Assembly: GCF_023511815.1 (NCBI RefSeq)
Contig: NZ_JAIMAV010000024.1
Location: forward strand, 1-33,595
Direction: 5' to 3'
Origin: Alicyclobacillus sp.
Lineage (GTDB): Bacteria > Bacillota > Bacilli > Alicyclobacillales > Alicyclobacillaceae
DNA: 33,595 nt
The notes under the pieces were generated by a model. The model did no database searches, was not told the DNA's origin, and saw only the letters and a list, made by a program, of their open reading frames with translations. The translations under genes and the position numbers were made by a program. Position 1 is the first letter of the stretch. Every line of letters begins with the position of its first letter. This document shows positions 22,999 through 30,361 of the stretch, piece after piece.

Positions 22999-23832
22999 TC
23001 ACGGCGACTCGGGCCGCCACGACCCCGCGACCCGCCGCAGGATGTCCAACCTCCGATCCGCGTGATACCCGTTCCACCATACCCCCTTCCAGCGACGGGT
23101 CGGGCGCCGCCCCAACAAAACGCAGCACCCCTCCACCGCGTCGCCCACCAGCGTCTCCAGCATTCGCCGTGCATGGGACTCGGTCCGGTTTCGATTGCCG
23201 GCGAGCCGGGGGTCCCACCCGCGGACCACCGCGAGGCGGATGCTGCGCTCCCGCGCCAGCGCACACCGTGCGAACCACTGCCCGGGATGATGCAGCCAGT
23301 AGGCGGAGACGTCGTGAAAGGCGGCGCGATGGACGAGCCACGGGCTCTCGGATGGCGAGACGTCCCGCCAGGCGGGCTGGATTCGGCCGAGTGTCGTCCG
23401 CCACAGTTGCAGATCCGGCCGCTCCGGATCCGAGCTCCCGTCTTTGCGCAGGGTGCGGTTTCCCACGAACGTCACCTGCGCACCGCTTCTCTGTGCACGA
23501 CTCACCCAATCCTGCAGCATCGGGCCAAACCCGCCGCCCCAATCCCCGTCCGCATACAGGAACCACCCCGTGTCGGGGAACGCGCGCAGCGCGGCGAACG
23601 TCCCGACCGCGCGCGGCACGTCCGGTCCGAGCGAGGGCCTGAATTCCAACACGCGTGCGGCCCAACGAAGGCGCAGGACGGCCTGGCGGGCGGCGGCCGC
23701 GCTGCCGTCGCGGCTGCCGTTGACGACGATGACGGCGCGGCGGATGCCGGCGCGGTGCAGTTGCCCGAGCGCGTGCGCGACGCGATCGGCCTCGTTTCGC
23801 ACGGGGATGATGGCGCACAGCGGGACGTCCAT
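22999..23832 (-). CDS. Glycosyltransferase family 2-like protein
   Basis: Predicted GT-A fold glycosyltransferase, 277 residues. The N-terminus has the nucleotide-sugar binding pattern CAIIPVRNEADRVAHALGQL followed by AVIVVNGSRDGS. An acidic metal-binding motif LYADGDWGGGFGP appears around residue 90. The C-terminal part is Arg/Trp-rich and less typical. No signal peptide or membrane segment is seen, so it probably acts in the cytoplasm. ATG 23832 follows AAAGGAG by 10 nt on the minus strand; the frame is open further upstream without an SD. It is divergent from yabG by 133 bp. The donor and acceptor are unknown. A link to spore-coat or spore-surface glycosylation is inferred only from its neighbour. 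Confidence 0.75.
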   Translation of the reverse strand: MDVPLCAIIPVRNEADRVAHALGQLHRAGIRRAVIVVNGSRDGSAAAARQAVLRLRWAARVLEFRPSLGPDVPRAVGTFAALRAFPDTGWFLYADGDWGGGFGPMLQDWVSRAQRSGAQVTFVGNRTLRKDGSSDPERPDLQLWRTTLGRIQPAWRDVSPSESPWLVHRAAFHDVSAYWLHHPGQWFARCALARERSIRLAVVRGWDPRLAGNRNRTESHARRMLETLVGDAVEGCCVLLGRRPTRRWKGVWWNGYHADRRLDILRRVAGSWRPESP

Positions 23833-23903
23833 CGGCTGCAGGCTCCTTTCCATCTGCCGGCGCGGAGTGCCAACGGGTGGCGTGGGCGATGGTCCCATCC
23901 CGT

Positions 23904-23932
23904 CACACGCCCTGCGGGCGGGACGTATGCTA
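23904..23932 (+). promoter_or_regulatory. Possible sigma-K promoter of yabG
   Basis: CACA (23904-23907), a 16-bp spacer and CGTATGCTA (23924-23932) match the sigma-K pattern mACm, 16-17 bp, CATAnnnTA at all but one conserved base. yabG is sigma-K dependent in Bacillus subtilis. The minus strand carries CATACGTCC across the same bases, so the glycosyltransferase could be fired from the same site. Confidence 0.45.
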
Positions 23933-23965
23933 TCGCAGCGACGAAGTCTCGAGGAGGGGCGCGCC

Positions 23966-24826
23966 TTGTGGAAACCGGGTGACATCGTGACGAGAAAGTC
24001 GTATGGACACGATCTGTGCTTCGTGATCGTCGAAGTGGATGAACCTTCCGCCACCGCCATCCTGAAAGGGTTGGATGTGCGCCTGATGGCAGACGCCCCG
24101 TTTGATGACCTGGAGGCCGTATCCGAAGAGGAGATGCGGCGGTTCGAGGCGAATCGAAACCGGGTCGAGAGCGAATGTCTTCGCCTCGTCCAGTCCAGGC
24201 GGGCGATGGAGTGGGAAAAGCGGGCCCTCCGCAAGGAGGCGCGGTTTCAGTCCGATCCGGATTTTTTTGAGCGGCCCGGCCGGGTTCTGCATCTGGACGG
24301 AGATGGCACCTACCTTCAGAAGTGTCTTCAAATGTACAGGGAACTCGGGATCCGGGCGTCTGGACACCATGTGCCGGAACCGCAGATGCCCGGCGTCATC
24401 GCCGGGCTGCTCGAGAAGCACACCCCCGACATCCTCATCATCACCGGCCACGACGGCGTGATCAAAAAGGGCAAGGACTGGTCCGACCTGTACAATTACC
24501 GCAACTCCTGCCACTTCGTCAAAGCGGTGGAGGGCGCTCGCCGCTGCGTGCGCAGCATGGATGACCTCATCATCATCGCGGGCGCGTGTCAGTCCCACTT
24601 CGAGGCCATCCTCGAGGCGGGCGCCAACTTTGCCAGCTCTCCTCAGCGCATCATGATTCACGCGCTCGATCCGGTGTTCATCGCCGAGAAGATCGCCTAC
24701 ACACCGATCCACGAGACGGTCAATGTGTACGACGTCGTGCGGTCCACCTACACGGGGACGGACGGCATCGGCGGGCTCGAGACGCGTGGGAAATACCGCC
24801 TTGGGTTGCCGAAATCATTGTATTAG
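23966..24826 (+). CDS. yabG: Sporulation-specific protease YabG
   Basis: Mother-cell cysteine protease that trims spore-coat and other spore proteins before transglutaminase cross-linking in Bacillus. The 286 residues match the family (290). The start LWKPGDIVTRKSYGHDLCFV and the core VLHLDGDGTYLQKCLQMYREL and PDILIITGHDGVIKKG are conserved, with the GACQSHFEAILEAGANFASSP segment and the C-terminal RGKYRLGLP. Conserved Cys and His residues in these segments are the likely catalytic pair. TTG 23966 is preceded by GAGGAGGGG six nt upstream. It is in the usual place before veg. Confidence 0.94.
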   Translation: MWKPGDIVTRKSYGHDLCFVIVEVDEPSATAILKGLDVRLMADAPFDDLEAVSEEEMRRFEANRNRVESECLRLVQSRRAMEWEKRALRKEARFQSDPDFFERPGRVLHLDGDGTYLQKCLQMYRELGIRASGHHVPEPQMPGVIAGLLEKHTPDILIITGHDGVIKKGKDWSDLYNYRNSCHFVKAVEGARRCVRSMDDLIIIAGACQSHFEAILEAGANFASSPQRIMIHALDPVFIAEKIAYTPIHETVNVYDVVRSTYTGTDGIGGLETRGKYRLGLPKSLY

Positions 24827-24887: not shown

Positions 24888-24917
24888 TTGACAACGAAAA
24901 ACATGCGTTGTTATAAT
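24888..24917 (+). promoter_or_regulatory. veg promoter P1 (sigma-A)
   Basis: TTGACA (24888-24893), an 18-bp spacer and TATAAT (24912-24917): both hexamers are perfect consensus. This AT-rich patch is striking in a GC-rich genome. Confidence 0.8.
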
Positions 24918-24929
24918 TATAAACCTTTA

Positions 24930-24958
24930 TTGACACTCCCTCTGCCGCGTGGTACAAT
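24930..24958 (+). promoter_or_regulatory. veg promoter P2 (sigma-A)
   Basis: TTGACA (24930-24935), a 17-bp spacer and TACAAT (24953-24958). This is the same hexamer pair and spacing as the strong Bacillus subtilis veg promoter. It lies 42 bp downstream of P1. Confidence 0.85.
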
Positions 24959-25372: not shown

Positions 25373-25561
25373 ATGGCGAGACGTGGAGGCACCATGTCGG
25401 AAGAGATGAAGATTGAGCTGGCGAAGGAACTCGGGTTTTACGATACCGTCCAGCGCGAGGGGTGGGGCGGTATCACCACGCGTCAGGCCGGCAACATGGT
25501 GAAGCGCGCGATCGAAATTGCAGAACGTGCCCTGGTTCAACAGGGGACGGACCGTTCGTAA
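25373..25561 (+). CDS. sspF: Small acid-soluble spore protein SspF-type
   Basis: A DNA-binding spore core protein of the alpha/beta SASP family, SspF branch, 62 residues. It matches Bacillus SspF well: [20 protein letters not shown] at the start, [17 protein letters not shown] in the middle and [13 protein letters not shown] near the end. SASPs coat and protect spore DNA and supply amino acids on germination. ATG 25373 follows GAGGAGG at 9 nt. A weak sigma-G-like pattern (TGTTTA at 25307, 18 bp, CACCCTG at 25331) overlaps the veg terminator, in line with the known sigma-G control. A strong terminator follows, so the gene is transcribed alone. Confidence 0.95.
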
Positions 25562-25582: not shown

Positions 25583-25607
25583 GGCCGGGGGACTCCCCGG
25601 CCTTTTT
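25583..25607 (+). terminator. Intrinsic terminator of sspF
   Basis: GGCCGGGG (25583-25590), GACT loop, CCCCGGCC (25595-25602) and five T form a textbook terminator. It separates sspF from the cyanophycin genes. Confidence 0.92.
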
Positions 25608-25650: not shown

Positions 25651-25775
25651 CACGTGCCCGGCCGACGCATCCTTGCACACGCGGCGGCGGGGAGGACTTT
25701 CAGCCCGCCGGACAGGAAATGGACACGTGCGCGGCCGACGCGTCGCTCCGAATAACCGGTTTCGGCCCGACGCAT
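25651..25775 (+). repeat. Direct repeats upstream of the cyanophycin operon
   Basis: CACGTGCCCGGCCGACGCATC (positions 25651-25671) recurs at 25724-25744 with two mismatches. A third partial copy, CGGCCCGACGCAT, is at 25763-25775. The first copy starts inside the perfect palindrome GGCACGTGCC (25649-25658). They lie in the 254-bp gap before cphB and could be operator sites. I see no gene in this gap. Confidence 0.5.
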
Positions 25776-25779
25776 GATA
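25750..25779 (+). promoter_or_regulatory. Candidate sigma-G promoter of cphBA
   Basis: GAATA (25750-25754), an 18-bp spacer and CATGATA (25773-25779) fit the Bacillus forespore sigma-G pattern gHATr, 17-18 bp, CATWMTA with one mismatch in the -10. The expected start near 25787 gives a leader of about 75 nt. The -10 overlaps the third repeat copy. This is a motif reading by eye. Confidence 0.45.
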
Positions 25780-25861
25780 AGGACGGTTTTTCCATTCTCC
25801 GGTGCGCGGAGAGAATACCAACCCGGCGCCGCCTGGGGCGGCTCGGGCGGGGGGGACAACA

Positions 25862-26704
25862 TTGCGCCGTAGGTCCGGCCCGCTCGTGATCATCGGCGGG
25901 AATGAGGATAAACAGGGCGAGTGCAGAATCCTGCGGGAGGTCGTCCGGCTCGGCGGAGGCGCGGATGCGCGCGTGCTCGTGATCACGGTGGCCACCGAGC
26001 TGCCGATTGAGGTCGGCATGGACTATGTGGAGGTGTTCACCCGGCTGGGCGCCAGGGACGTCCGCACGTTCGACGTCTCCGATCGACGGGCGGCAAATCG
26101 AGACAGCGCGGTGGAGATGATCCGGGAGGCGACCTGCATCTTCTTCACCGGCGGCGACCAGATGCGCATCACCAAACTCCTGGGCGGGACGCGCATCGAC
26201 GCGGTGTTGCACGACGCCCTCGGCCAGGGCGTGGTCCTGGCCGGGACCAGCGCGGGGGCGTCGATGATGTCCAGCACCATGATTGTCGAAGGAGAGCCCA
26301 AGACCAACCCGCGCATCAGCGTGGTGCAGATGGCGCCCGGCATGGAGTTTCTCGACGGTGTGGTGATTGATCAGCATTTCGCACAACGCGGCCGCCTCGG
26401 ACGCCTGCTGTCGGCGGTATCCCAATACCCGCATCATCTGGGACTGGGCATTGACGAGGACACGGCCATCATCGTCGAGGATCAGGCGTTTCGCGTCCTC
26501 GGCCGCGGCGCGGTGAGCGTGGTGGACGCGGGAATGCTCACGCACAGCAATCTCGACTCCGTTCGGTATGACGAGTCGTTGGCGCTGTGCGGGATCAAGC
26601 TCCACATTCTCCCCGAGGGGTACGGGTTTCACCTGCGAACACGAGAGCCGATTGTCCACTGGGACCAGTGGCAAGCCAACCAGTCCAAGGAGTTGACGGA
26701 ATGA
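25862..26704 (+). CDS. cphB: Cyanophycinase (peptidase S51)
   Basis: Cleaves cyanophycin (multi-L-arginyl-poly-L-aspartate) to beta-Asp-Arg dipeptides. The 280-residue protein keeps the S51 catalytic residues: Ser130 in GTSAGAS, His172 in DQHFAQRGR and Glu199 in GIDEDTA. Their spacing (42 and 27) equals that of the Synechocystis enzyme (132, 174, 201). The fold motifs VIIGGNEDK and FFTGGDQMRI are also present. TTG 25862 follows a GGGGGGG run; no better SD is near other in-frame starts. The stop overlaps the cphA start (ATGA), so degradation and synthesis genes form one coupled operon. No signal peptide is seen, so it acts in the cytoplasm. Confidence 0.93.
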   Translation: MRRRSGPLVIIGGNEDKQGECRILREVVRLGGGADARVLVITVATELPIEVGMDYVEVFTRLGARDVRTFDVSDRRAANRDSAVEMIREATCIFFTGGDQMRITKLLGGTRIDAVLHDALGQGVVLAGTSAGASMMSSTMIVEGEPKTNPRISVVQMAPGMEFLDGVVIDQHFAQRGRLGRLLSAVSQYPHHLGLGIDEDTAIIVEDQAFRVLGRGAVSVVDAGMLTHSNLDSVRYDESLALCGIKLHILPEGYGFHLRTREPIVHWDQWQANQSKELTE

Positions 26705-29352
26705 ACATCGTCTCGGTACGCCACCTGGATGGCCCGAACATTTACATTTACAGGCCGGTGATGATCGCCCGCGTGGATCTCGAGGGACTGACGGAACGGG
26801 AGAGCTACGAGTTTCCCGGTTTCTCGGATCGGATCCTGCGCCTGTTGCCAGGCCTGCGCGAGCACCACTGCGCCAAGGGGGCGCCGGGCGGCTTCGTGGA
26901 ACGGCTGTATGGCGGCACGTACTTCGGCCACATCGTGGAACACGTCGCCATTGAACTCGCGTGTCTGGCCGGCGTCGATGTCCACTTCGGACGAACGGTG
27001 TACGCGGGCCGCCCGGGGCTGTACGACATCGTCATGGAGTGCAGGGCATACGCGTGTCAGCGGTATCTGCTGGACGAGGCCATCCGGCTGGTCGGCGACC
27101 TCATCGAGGGCAGGGCGCCGGCTCTCGACAAGGTGCTGGCGGAGGCCCAGAACATTCTCGCCCGCACGGAGTTCGGCCCGAGCACAAGGGCCATTGTGGA
27201 GGCGGCGCTGCGCCGGAACATCCCCGTTCGGCGGCTGAACGACGGCAGCCTGATCCAGCTGGGGTATGGCCGGCACCGGCGCCTGGTCGAGGCGACGGTC
27301 ACCGACCGGACCTCCGCGGTCGCGGTGGACATTGCGTGCGACAAGGAGTTGACCAAGCGGTTGTTGGCGGCCGCGGGCATCCCGGTTCCGGATGGAGCGG
27401 TGGCGGAAGATGTGGAGGCCGCCGTGGCGGCATTCCACCGGATTGGGCCGCCCGTCGTCGTCAAGCCGTTCAACGGGAACCAGGGGCGAGGTGTCAGTCT
27501 GAACCTGACCACCGAAGGGGAGGTGCGGGAGGCCTACGAGATCGCCCAGGCCTTCTCCCCGCGCGTCCTGGTGGAGCCGTACATCGTCGGGCGCAACATC
27601 CGGTTTCTCGTCGTCGACGGCCGATTCACGGCCGCCAGTGAGCGGATTCCGGCGCGGGTGTTCGGCGACGGTCTGCACACCGTCCAGGAGCTGATTGACG
27701 CGGCCAACGCCCACCCGTTGCGCGGAATGGGGCACGAAAAGCCGCTGACCCGCATCCGGGTCGACGCGGTGGTGCTGAACACGCTGCGTCGGCAGCAGCT
27801 CGGCCTCACCTCCGTCCCGGCCCCCGGGCAGGAGGTGTGGTTGCGAGAGAGCGCCAATCTGTCCACGGGCGGAGAGGCGGTTGACGTCACGGCGGATGTC
27901 CATCCCAGCTACGCCCGGCTGGCGGAGCGCGTCGCCCGCGTGATTGGGTTGGATGTCTGCGGGATTGACATGGTCGTCGCGCACCCGGAGGCCCCCTTCG
28001 ACCGCCGCGCGTGCGCCGTCATTGAGGTCAACGCGGCCCCCGGCATCCGCATGCATGAACACCCTTCGTACGGCGTCGCCCGAGCGGCGGGCGAGCGCAT
28101 TGTGGAGTCGTTGTTCCCAAACGGCGCCGACGGCCGGATTCCGATTGTGGCCATCACGGGCACCAACGGGAAGACGACGACCACGCGCCTCATCGGACAC
28201 GTCCTGGCGTCCACCGGGCGCGTGGTGGGGATGACGACGACCAGCGGGGTGTGGATCGGCGGGGAGAAAGTTTTGGACGGGGACACCACGGGGCCGGAGA
28301 GCGCGCGCATCGTCCTGTCCGATCCGGCGGTCGACGTGGCGGTGCTCGAGACGGCGCGCGGCGGCATCGTCCGCGGCGGACTGGCGTACGATCGCGCCAA
28401 CGTCGCCGTGATCACGAACATCAGCATGGACCACCTCGGCCAGGACGGCGTGGAGACCATCGAGGATCTGGTGCACATCAAGTCGTTGGTCGGCGAATGC
28501 GTGTGGGAGGACGGGACCGTCGTTCTCAACGCGGACGACGAACGGCTCGTGCAGTTGGCCCCCCGCCTGCCGGCCAGGGTGGCGTATTTCTCGATGTCCG
28601 ACCAGAACCCGGTGCTCAAACGGCACCTGGCGTGCGGGGGGGTCGGGTACTACCTGTTCCGCGACTGGATTGTCGAGGGGCGCGGCAATCTCACCTGGGA
28701 GGTCGCGCCGGTGCGCGACATTCCGCTGACCATGCAGGGTCTGGCCCGCTTCCACGTGGAGAACTGCCTGGCGGCCGTCGCGGCGCTGCGCGCCCTGGGC
28801 TGCACGCGGCAGCAGGTGGCCAGCGGTCTCACCAGTTTTCTCCCCGGCGAGCACAACCCCGGCCGCTGCATGCTCTACCGCCTGCCGGGCGGTGTGCACG
28901 CCGTGCTCGACTACGGCCACAACCCGGAAGGCTTTCAGCGCATGGCCGAGTGGTTGCGCCAGGTGCCTCACCGCCGCCTCGTCGCCGTCGTCGGGGTGCC
29001 GGGAGACCGGATGGACGCCGTCATCCGCCAGAGCGGCCGCCAGGCCGCGGCCCTCTTCGACGCGTTGGTCGTCAAGGAGGACGCGGACAAACGGGGGCGG
29101 CGCGAGGGCGAGGTGGCCGGCATCCTGGAGGAGGAGATCCGCAACACGGCGCCCGGCAAGCCGTGCACGGTGATCCTCCCGGAGCCCGATGCGCTGCGGT
29201 TCGCTTTGAATCAGGCCGTGCCCGGCGATGTCGTCGTGATGTTCTTCGAACGGTTGGACCCCGCCAAGCGAGTGATTGAGGAGTTTGGCGGCGTGCCGGT
29301 GACGTCGTTCGACGCGCCCGTGGCGCAGCCGTCCGTCGCCGTGCCGCTGTAA
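26701..29352 (+). CDS. cphA: Cyanophycin synthetase (CphA1 type)
   Basis: ATP-dependent ligase that polymerises aspartate and arginine into cyanophycin, an insoluble nitrogen reserve. The 883 residues match CphA1 (about 875), not the shorter CphA2. An N-terminal domain (1-160) holds HIVEHVAIEL (77-86), the HxxEH pattern linked to the primer-making metallopeptidase site in some CphA1 enzymes. An ATP-grasp domain (about 215-470) follows, with VVVKPFNGNQGRGVSLN and AVIEVNAAPGIRMHEHP. The Mur-ligase-like domain has GTNGKTTTTR (487-496), VLETARGGIVRGGL and KEDADKRGRREGEVA. ATG 26701 overlaps the cphB stop. The gene is intact. In Bacillus subtilis nothing like it lies here. Confidence 0.96.
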   Translation: MNIVSVRHLDGPNIYIYRPVMIARVDLEGLTERESYEFPGFSDRILRLLPGLREHHCAKGAPGGFVERLYGGTYFGHIVEHVAIELACLAGVDVHFGRTVYAGRPGLYDIVMECRAYACQRYLLDEAIRLVGDLIEGRAPALDKVLAEAQNILARTEFGPSTRAIVEAALRRNIPVRRLNDGSLIQLGYGRHRRLVEATVTDRTSAVAVDIACDKELTKRLLAAAGIPVPDGAVAEDVEAAVAAFHRIGPPVVVKPFNGNQGRGVSLNLTTEGEVREAYEIAQAFSPRVLVEPYIVGRNIRFLVVDGRFTAASERIPARVFGDGLHTVQELIDAANAHPLRGMGHEKPLTRIRVDAVVLNTLRRQQLGLTSVPAPGQEVWLRESANLSTGGEAVDVTADVHPSYARLAERVARVIGLDVCGIDMVVAHPEAPFDRRACAVIEVNAAPGIRMHEHPSYGVARAAGERIVESLFPNGADGRIPIVAITGTNGKTTTTRLIGHVLASTGRVVGMTTTSGVWIGGEKVLDGDTTGPESARIVLSDPAVDVAVLETARGGIVRGGLAYDRANVAVITNISMDHLGQDGVETIEDLVHIKSLVGECVWEDGTVVLNADDERLVQLAPRLPARVAYFSMSDQNPVLKRHLACGGVGYYLFRDWIVEGRGNLTWEVAPVRDIPLTMQGLARFHVENCLAAVAALRALGCTRQQVASGLTSFLPGEHNPGRCMLYRLPGGVHAVLDYGHNPEGFQRMAEWLRQVPHRRLVAVVGVPGDRMDAVIRQSGRQAAALFDALVVKEDADKRGRREGEVAGILEEEIRNTAPGKPCTVILPEPDALRFALNQAVPGDVVVMFFERLDPAKRVIEEFGGVPVTSFDAPVAQPSVAVPL

Positions 29353-29455: not shown

Positions 29456-30361
29456 GTGGGCGTCTTGTTGGTGGAGCACGCATTCGCAAAGATCAATCTC
29501 ACGCTCGACGTGATGGGGCGTCGGCCGGATGGCTACCACGAGGTGGACATGGTGATGCAGACCATCGATCTCGCCGACGTCCTCACGCTCGAGGAGGACC
29601 CGGCGGGGGCCATCACTCTCGAGGCGAACGCCTCGTCCGTGCCCTTGGATGAGCGCAATCTGGCACACGTGGCCGCGCGGGTGTTTCGCGCCAACAGCGG
29701 TGTGAATCGCGGGGTTCGCATCCTTATCGACAAGCAGATCCCGGTTGCGGCCGGGTTGGCCGGGGGATCGGCGGACGCCGCCGCGGTTCTGAGAGGGCTC
29801 AACCGCCTGTGGGGGACGGGGAAGACGACGGACGAGCTGGCGGCGTGGGGCGCGGCCATCGGGTCCGACGTTCCGTTCTGTGTGCGCCGCGGGTGCGCGG
29901 TGGCGCGCGGGCGGGGTGAGCGCCTGGAGCCGGTGAATCACCGGATGCACGCGTGGGTGGTGTTGGTTCGGCCGCCGGTGTTCGTCTCGACGGGGGATGT
30001 GTACGGCGCGCTGCGGGCGGAGGAGTACAGCCGCCGCCCTCGCAGCCCGGAGATGGTGCGGGCGCTGGCGGCCGGTGACTTCGAAGCGGTCCGGGCGGGG
30101 GTGCACAACGTGCTTGCGCCGGTCACGTTTCGCCTTTATCCGGAGGTGGCGCGCCTCGCCGAGCGGGTGCGACACGTCGCCGGCGTTCCCGTGCACATGT
30201 CGGGCAGCGGTCCCACGCTGTTCTGTCTGCTTCCGACGCGCGGCTCGGCGCAGCGCGTCTACCATGCGCTGCGGGGGTTCATGCGCGAGGTGTACCTCTG
30301 CCGGTTTCTCCCCTCGGCCCTCGCGCCCCCGCGAGGCGGCCGTCCGTCTGTGGAGCCGTGA
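29456..30361 (+). CDS. ispE: 4-diphosphocytidyl-2-C-methyl-D-erythritol kinase
   Basis: GHMP kinase of the MEP isoprenoid pathway; phosphorylates CDP-ME at the 2-position. The 301 residues include AFAKINLTLDVMGRRPDGYH at the N-terminus, the ATP-binding PVAAGLAGGSADAAA, GSDVPFCV and the C-terminal MSGSGPTLFCL motif. GTG 29456 follows AAGGG by 9 nt; TTG 29465 is an alternative with GGTGG closer. The gene has its usual place before purR. No gene for another step of the pathway is in the window. Confidence 0.96.
   Translation: MGVLLVEHAFAKINLTLDVMGRRPDGYHEVDMVMQTIDLADVLTLEEDPAGAITLEANASSVPLDERNLAHVAARVFRANSGVNRGVRILIDKQIPVAAGLAGGSADAAAVLRGLNRLWGTGKTTDELAAWGAAIGSDVPFCVRRGCAVARGRGERLEPVNHRMHAWVVLVRPPVFVSTGDVYGALRAEEYSRRPRSPEMVRALAAGDFEAVRAGVHNVLAPVTFRLYPEVARLAERVRHVAGVPVHMSGSGPTLFCLLPTRGSAQRVYHALRGFMREVYLCRFLPSALAPPRGGRPSVEP

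Follow-up and report, generated by a model that had tools for sequence, protein, structure and literature searches.

The window analysed here is a stretch of 33,595 nucleotides from an Alicyclobacillus sp. genome, in which a cyanophycinase gene and a cyanophycin synthetase gene lie between a spore-protein gene and ispE. The features of this locus are as follows.

25373-25561, plus strand: sspF-type gene for an alpha/beta small acid-soluble spore protein (SASP; PF00269, 31.4 bits, cut-off 22)
25583-25602, plus strand: intrinsic terminator-like stem closing sspF (8 GC pairs, then TTTTTGTTGT with a T-run)
25750-25779, plus strand: forespore (sigma-G-type) promoter-like site (-35 element GAATA at 25750-25754, 18-nt spacer, -10 element CATGATA at 25773-25779)
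25794-25816, plus strand: inverted repeat ATTCTCCG...CGGAGAGAAT, read from the sequence, in what is presumably the 5' untranslated region of cphB
25862-26704, plus strand: cphB, cyanophycinase (280 aa, TTG start; TIGR02069; Ser130/His172/Glu199)
26701-29352, plus strand: cphA, cyanophycin synthetase (883 aa; TIGR02068; ATGA overlap with cphB)
29456-30361, plus strand: ispE, the downstream neighbour of cphA (TIGR00154, 256.5 bits)

An earlier, sequence-only reading of this DNA had claimed an intact cphB-cphA pair with its catalytic residues kept and with overlapping ends, and our searches bear this out. CphB passes the NCBIfam cut-off for TIGR02069 (307.6 bits against 126.6), and CphA passes that for the TIGR02068 equivalog over its full length (residues 2-862, 1168 bits against 850). 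In CphB, Ser130 lies in GTSAGA, His172 in DQHF and Glu199 in GIDEDT. CphA has the N-terminal domain PF18921, a RimK-type ATP-grasp domain and both Mur-ligase domains, and it retains both ATP sites, KPFNGNQGRG at 255 and the P-loop GTNGKTTTT at 487, in contrast to the CphA2-like enzymes, which lack one of them (PMC5532821). By sequence, the nearest solved structures to CphB are cyanophycinases (7uqv, E 1e-76) and the nearest to CphA, its best PDB matches, are cyanophycin synthases (7lg5, E 9e-211); Glu80 of CphA lines up with a position occupied by E in PDB chain 7lg5 and by Q in 7txv. Alignment of its surroundings with two congeners backs the TTG start of cphB, and the ATGA overlap is seen at 26701-26704. 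The genome has a single CphA. It also encodes, away from this locus, an isoaspartyl dipeptidase, IadA (TIGR01975, 501.6 bits, cut-off 331.25), so that the genome encodes the complete path by which the polymer can be broken down to Asp and Arg; a beta-aspartyl peptidase, PF01112, was looked for in addition and gave no match. With the CphA1 and CphB of cyanobacteria and other organisms, the pair shares homology over the full length, the order of the domains and the catalytic motifs. Judged by their sequences, cphB and cphA are ordinary, and their interest is in their place and control.

As for that place, the identities of yabG, veg, ispE and an RNase-H-like protein gene were checked by family search, and ksgA, purR, ridA and spoVG are presumed names; the product of sspF matches PF00269 and has no NCBIfam family assigned. 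On the minus strand, between the RNase-H-like gene and yabG, a long frame (22999-24234) resembles by eye a family 2 glycosyltransferase. The genome (3.0 Mb in 165 contigs) contains spoIVA, seven SASP matches and gpr, and so looks like that of a spore former. In B. subtilis, sspF and ispE presumably adjoin, and the sequence-only reading had described cphBA as embedded between them. The location is right, and comparison of the interval across relatives, which that reading had called for, shows an arrangement shared across order, class and phylum rather than a peculiar insert. Within the order, CphA was found in 40 of 41 genomes, the window's included; 36 of the 40 score over the cut-off, and the other four are split or contig-cut pieces (G001, G008, G014, G038). 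Among the 41, only G040, a 73% complete genome, has no CphA. In the congener G001, a two-contig genome, cphA runs over two overlapping frames (L074, profile positions 1-554 and 553-860), which is either a frameshift confined to one species or a mistake in the sequencing. The order cphB-cphA-ispE on one strand is present at 33 of the 40 loci and the longer order veg-sspF-cphB-cphA-ispE at 27, several of the misses being contig ends.

The same arrangement reaches further. With an E-value threshold of 1e-150, CphA was found in 62 of 398 genomes of the class, 39 in the order and 23 outside it. We used 20 of these 23, leaving aside one at a contig end (G119) and two near-duplicates (G154 and G195); 14 of the 20 loci show sspF-cphB-cphA-ispE, and six have cphBA elsewhere. 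In a phylum sample, 123 of 398 genomes have CphA. From the 121 phylum genomes outside the class we picked 80 loci (79 genomes) by hand, favouring different families, so that this set is non-random: cphB lies directly upstream of cphA in 76 of them, ispE directly after cphA in 70, and all three genes are in this order in 70, with sspF directly before cphB in just 4. Among the matches listed for named loci with CphA (n = 67), ispE stands at four of the five Bacillota loci and at none of the 62 others, as judged by an ispE profile built from sequences of the order, which a very distant ispE could escape.

In a tree of 201 CphA sequences, a non-random sample from which frames of 650 aa or less were excluded (L072, L073, L075, L076, L147), 137 of 140 Bacillota sequences form one clade (support 0.989) together with three actinobacterial sequences, and the 50 in-locus sequences of the order and class form a clade of support 1.0. 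The three Bacillota sequences outside the main clade (L138, L146, L148) come from class loci away from the sspF-ispE place. The actinobacterial ones, from a metagenome-assembled genome, Actinomadura and Actinoplanes (L242, L245, L256), nest with the Bacillota clade, which suggests transfer. We read the CphA of Bacillota as probably old and mostly vertically inherited, with later losses. The possibility that cphBA entered the sspF-ispE interval only recently in this lineage was considered and rejected on the spread of CphA, the gene order and the tree.

Possession of cphA also goes with sporulation. In the phylum sample, spoIVA is present in 119 of 123 genomes with cphA and in 216 of 275 without it (odds ratio 8.1; Fisher p 5e-7, uncorrected for kinship). 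Of the four cphA-bearing genomes that lack spoIVA, three are 61-75% complete and one (G708) 90%. Since 216 of the 335 genomes with spoIVA have no cphA, cyanophycin is not required for sporulation. The B. subtilis genome in our control list gave no CphA match.

The sequence-only reading had gone on to propose that the polymer is made in, or used by, the spore, arguing from the neighbouring sspF. The proposal itself gains from a predicted forespore promoter, from the association with spoIVA and from the phylum-wide locus; the argument from adjacency is weak. A terminator-like stem separates sspF from cphB, so that their adjacency proves little, the neighbour on the other side, ispE, is a housekeeping gene, and sspF is kept directly before cphB in only 4 of the 80 phylum loci, although 70 of them keep cphB-cphA-ispE. 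Co-transcription with sspF as the cause of spore expression of cphBA was rejected because of the stem at 25583-25602.

The promoter-like site ahead of cphB was first spotted by eye as GAATA-N18-CATGATA, and it is one mismatch away from what we take to be the B. subtilis sigma-G consensus. It is the sole such match in the window, where 0.32 would be expected over both strands and where one or more occur in 27 of 100 shuffles. The whole genome (3.0 Mb) has 51 matches to this consensus against 38 for the reversed pattern, and 4 exact matches against 3 when the consensus is applied strictly; calculated from 51 per 3.0 Mb, the chance of a match in 300 nt of one strand is about 0.0025. Both elements and their 18-nt spacing are identical in three species of the genus, and in two congeners much of the 150 nt ahead of the site differs with the elements unchanged. 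The predicted site thus shows the conserved -35 and -10 elements and spacing before an operon that are looked for in a forespore regulon. As controls in the same genome, five of eight forespore-type genes (SASP1-4 and gpr) have such a site with at most one mismatch, similar to that of cphB; SASP5, SASP6 and the sspF of the window have no good one. The region upstream of iadA has no forespore-type site. The inverted repeat in the presumed cphB leader is largely conserved in the two congeners.

Outside the genus the site takes a related form. From the loci of the order we defined a GG-type motif, GYATA-N14..16-GGNNANNHTA, searched over the 235 nt ahead of cphB with up to one mismatch tolerated, and then tested it on the phylum loci outside the class; usable upstream sequence was available for 37 of 40 and 76 of 80 loci, respectively. 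The window's site differs from this motif by three mismatches, and its genus has the GAATA-N18-CATGATA variant in place of it. In the order, 29 of 37 loci have the motif, against 1 on the reverse strand and 0.4 in shuffles. It was also found at 43 of 76 phylum loci (reverse strand 3, shuffles 2.6), at only 5 of 20 class loci outside the order (shuffles 0.5, reverse strand 0) and, among the matches listed, before 1 of 37 non-Bacillota cphB genes. Counted by group, with one member sufficing, it occurs in 19 of the 23 genera of the order and in 24 of the 39 families of the phylum set; at this tolerance, genera g7, g10 and g21 of the order and the other 15 families yielded no site. Exact matches with a looser -35 element, GYWTA, stand at 23 of 37 order loci and 22 of 76 phylum loci, against 0.0 and 0.4 in shuffles, and at none of the 20 class loci outside the order. 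Upstream of the neighbouring genes, there is at most one exact match per gene and group; the exception is sspF, itself a forespore gene, where 5 of the 32 order loci have one. When one mismatch is allowed to the looser motif, spoVG in the phylum set reaches 10 of 57 and ispE 6 of 73, none of them exact.

It could be asked whether such a site mainly serves a downstream gene or some RNA of another kind, with cphBA transcribed incidentally. Since ispE follows closely after cphA in 70 of the 80 phylum loci, read-through into it is possible. However, the site begins 65-95 nt ahead of cphB in 36 of its 43 phylum occurrences, a usual spot for a promoter of cphB itself, and none of the 36 order and 73 phylum loci has the exact site before ispE; we regard this explanation as very improbable.

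None of the consensus sites used for sigma-A, E, K and H is clearly above both shuffles and reverse strand in the order or phylum sets: sigma-A-type sites precede cphB at one of the 37 order loci and at two of the 76 in the phylum set, where shuffles give 2.7, and sigma-E sites in the phylum number 4 forward and 4 reverse, with 0.6 in shuffles. Control of cphBA by any of these four was set aside, as no site excess comparable to that of the GG-type motif appeared. In the window, two strong sigma-A-type promoter-like sites (12/12 and 11/12) lie at 24888-24958, ahead of veg, and none was found before cphB. These results bear on the view that cphBA provides growing cells with an ordinary nitrogen reserve, is transcribed by the housekeeping machinery and owes its place beside spore genes to history. 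This view can point to the housekeeping nature of ispE and to the purR- and ridA-like genes that come next, as well as to electrosynthesis in C. ljungdahlii, where cphB is up-regulated and granules are reported in active cells, though cyanophycin was not extractable (PMC13241827). The lack of a sigma-A-type promoter before cphB in the window and of any sigma-A excess in order or phylum argues against it, as do the abundance of forespore-type sites at this position and the association of cphA with spoIVA, and we consider it unlikely. The C. ljungdahlii report lists cphB as up-regulated among sporulation genes (PMC13241827).

Taking together the operon's own promoter-like site, the association with spoIVA and the occurrence of the locus across the phylum, mostly in spore formers, we propose that cphBA is a forespore operon for an Arg/Asp reserve. 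We give this reading, storage and use at germination included, a probability of roughly 0.6; that the operon is transcribed in the forespore would hold in about three cases out of four. According to this proposal, cphBA would be an old Bacillota operon that is turned on in the forespore. After engulfment, RNA polymerase with sigma-G would initiate just upstream of cphB and produce a cphB-cphA message; in relatives with a GG-type -10 element, sigma-F may perhaps act instead. CphA would then join Asp and Arg into cyanophycin, which we suppose accumulates inside the forespore. CphB may be packed with the polymer and, if our guess of a delay is right, become mainly active once the core rehydrates at germination. 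It would free beta-Asp-Arg, which IadA could split into Asp and Arg for outgrowth.

Alternatively, the operon may be transcribed in the forespore for a product that serves the assembly of the spore, its size, morphology or arginine buffering of the core, and not as food at germination. In the study of C. perfringens cphA, the spores were reportedly fewer and smaller with normal heat resistance, and cyanophycinase is said to be present in germinated spores. A role of this gene in spore assembly and morphology is cited in PMC5532821 and PMC6174930. Assembly alone, however, has no need for a depolymerase in the same operon or for an isoaspartyl dipeptidase, both of which point to use of the product, and we hold this alternative to be rather unlikely.

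A link between cyanophycin and the spore is already published for Clostridium. PMC5532821 also reports CphA-like genes in Bacillus horikoshii, and PMC9482736 describes segmented filamentous bacteria (SFB) in which cphAB and ispE precede a ger operon and cyanophycin is proposed as an amino acid source at germination. The window shares the neighbourhood of cphAB and ispE with this Clostridium/SFB locus and differs from it in adjoining veg-sspF as well; no forespore promoter is described for that locus in the parts of the papers that we saw. Compared with the cyanobacterial type of CphA1/CphB system, the present one belongs to an endospore former, has cphB before cphA with an overlap, lies beside ispE and has a forespore-type promoter-like site. 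In the open-licence literature, as far as its accessible text goes, we found neither control of cphBA by forespore sigma factors nor a conserved forespore promoter described, and there we found no paper on Alicyclobacillus with cyanophycin; for that literature, the earlier remark that the control of cyanophycin in this lineage is not known stands.

SASPs are stored in the forespore and are degraded to amino acids by the protease GPR at germination. If our reading is true, cyanophycin would resemble them as a polymer stored in the forespore and broken down to amino acids at germination, although cphBA is not homologous to the SASP and gpr genes and the polymer is non-ribosomal, made by an enzyme. 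As a tentative extension, which we hold to be somewhat less likely than not, the ancestor of the Bacillota may already have made cyanophycin in its forespores and packed it with its own depolymerase as part of sporulation, a non-ribosomal analogue of SASP/GPR that was later lost, for example, in the B. subtilis lineage.

From what is accessible of the literature, the role of cyanophycin in endospore formers is addressed by gene annotation and by two studies, one in C. perfringens and one on electrosynthesis. A forespore-type promoter-like site conserved across many genera makes a role in the spore directly testable. If the reading is true, many spores would hold a reserve rich in arginine that could not come to light in the B. 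subtilis model, whose genome gave no CphA match in our control list.
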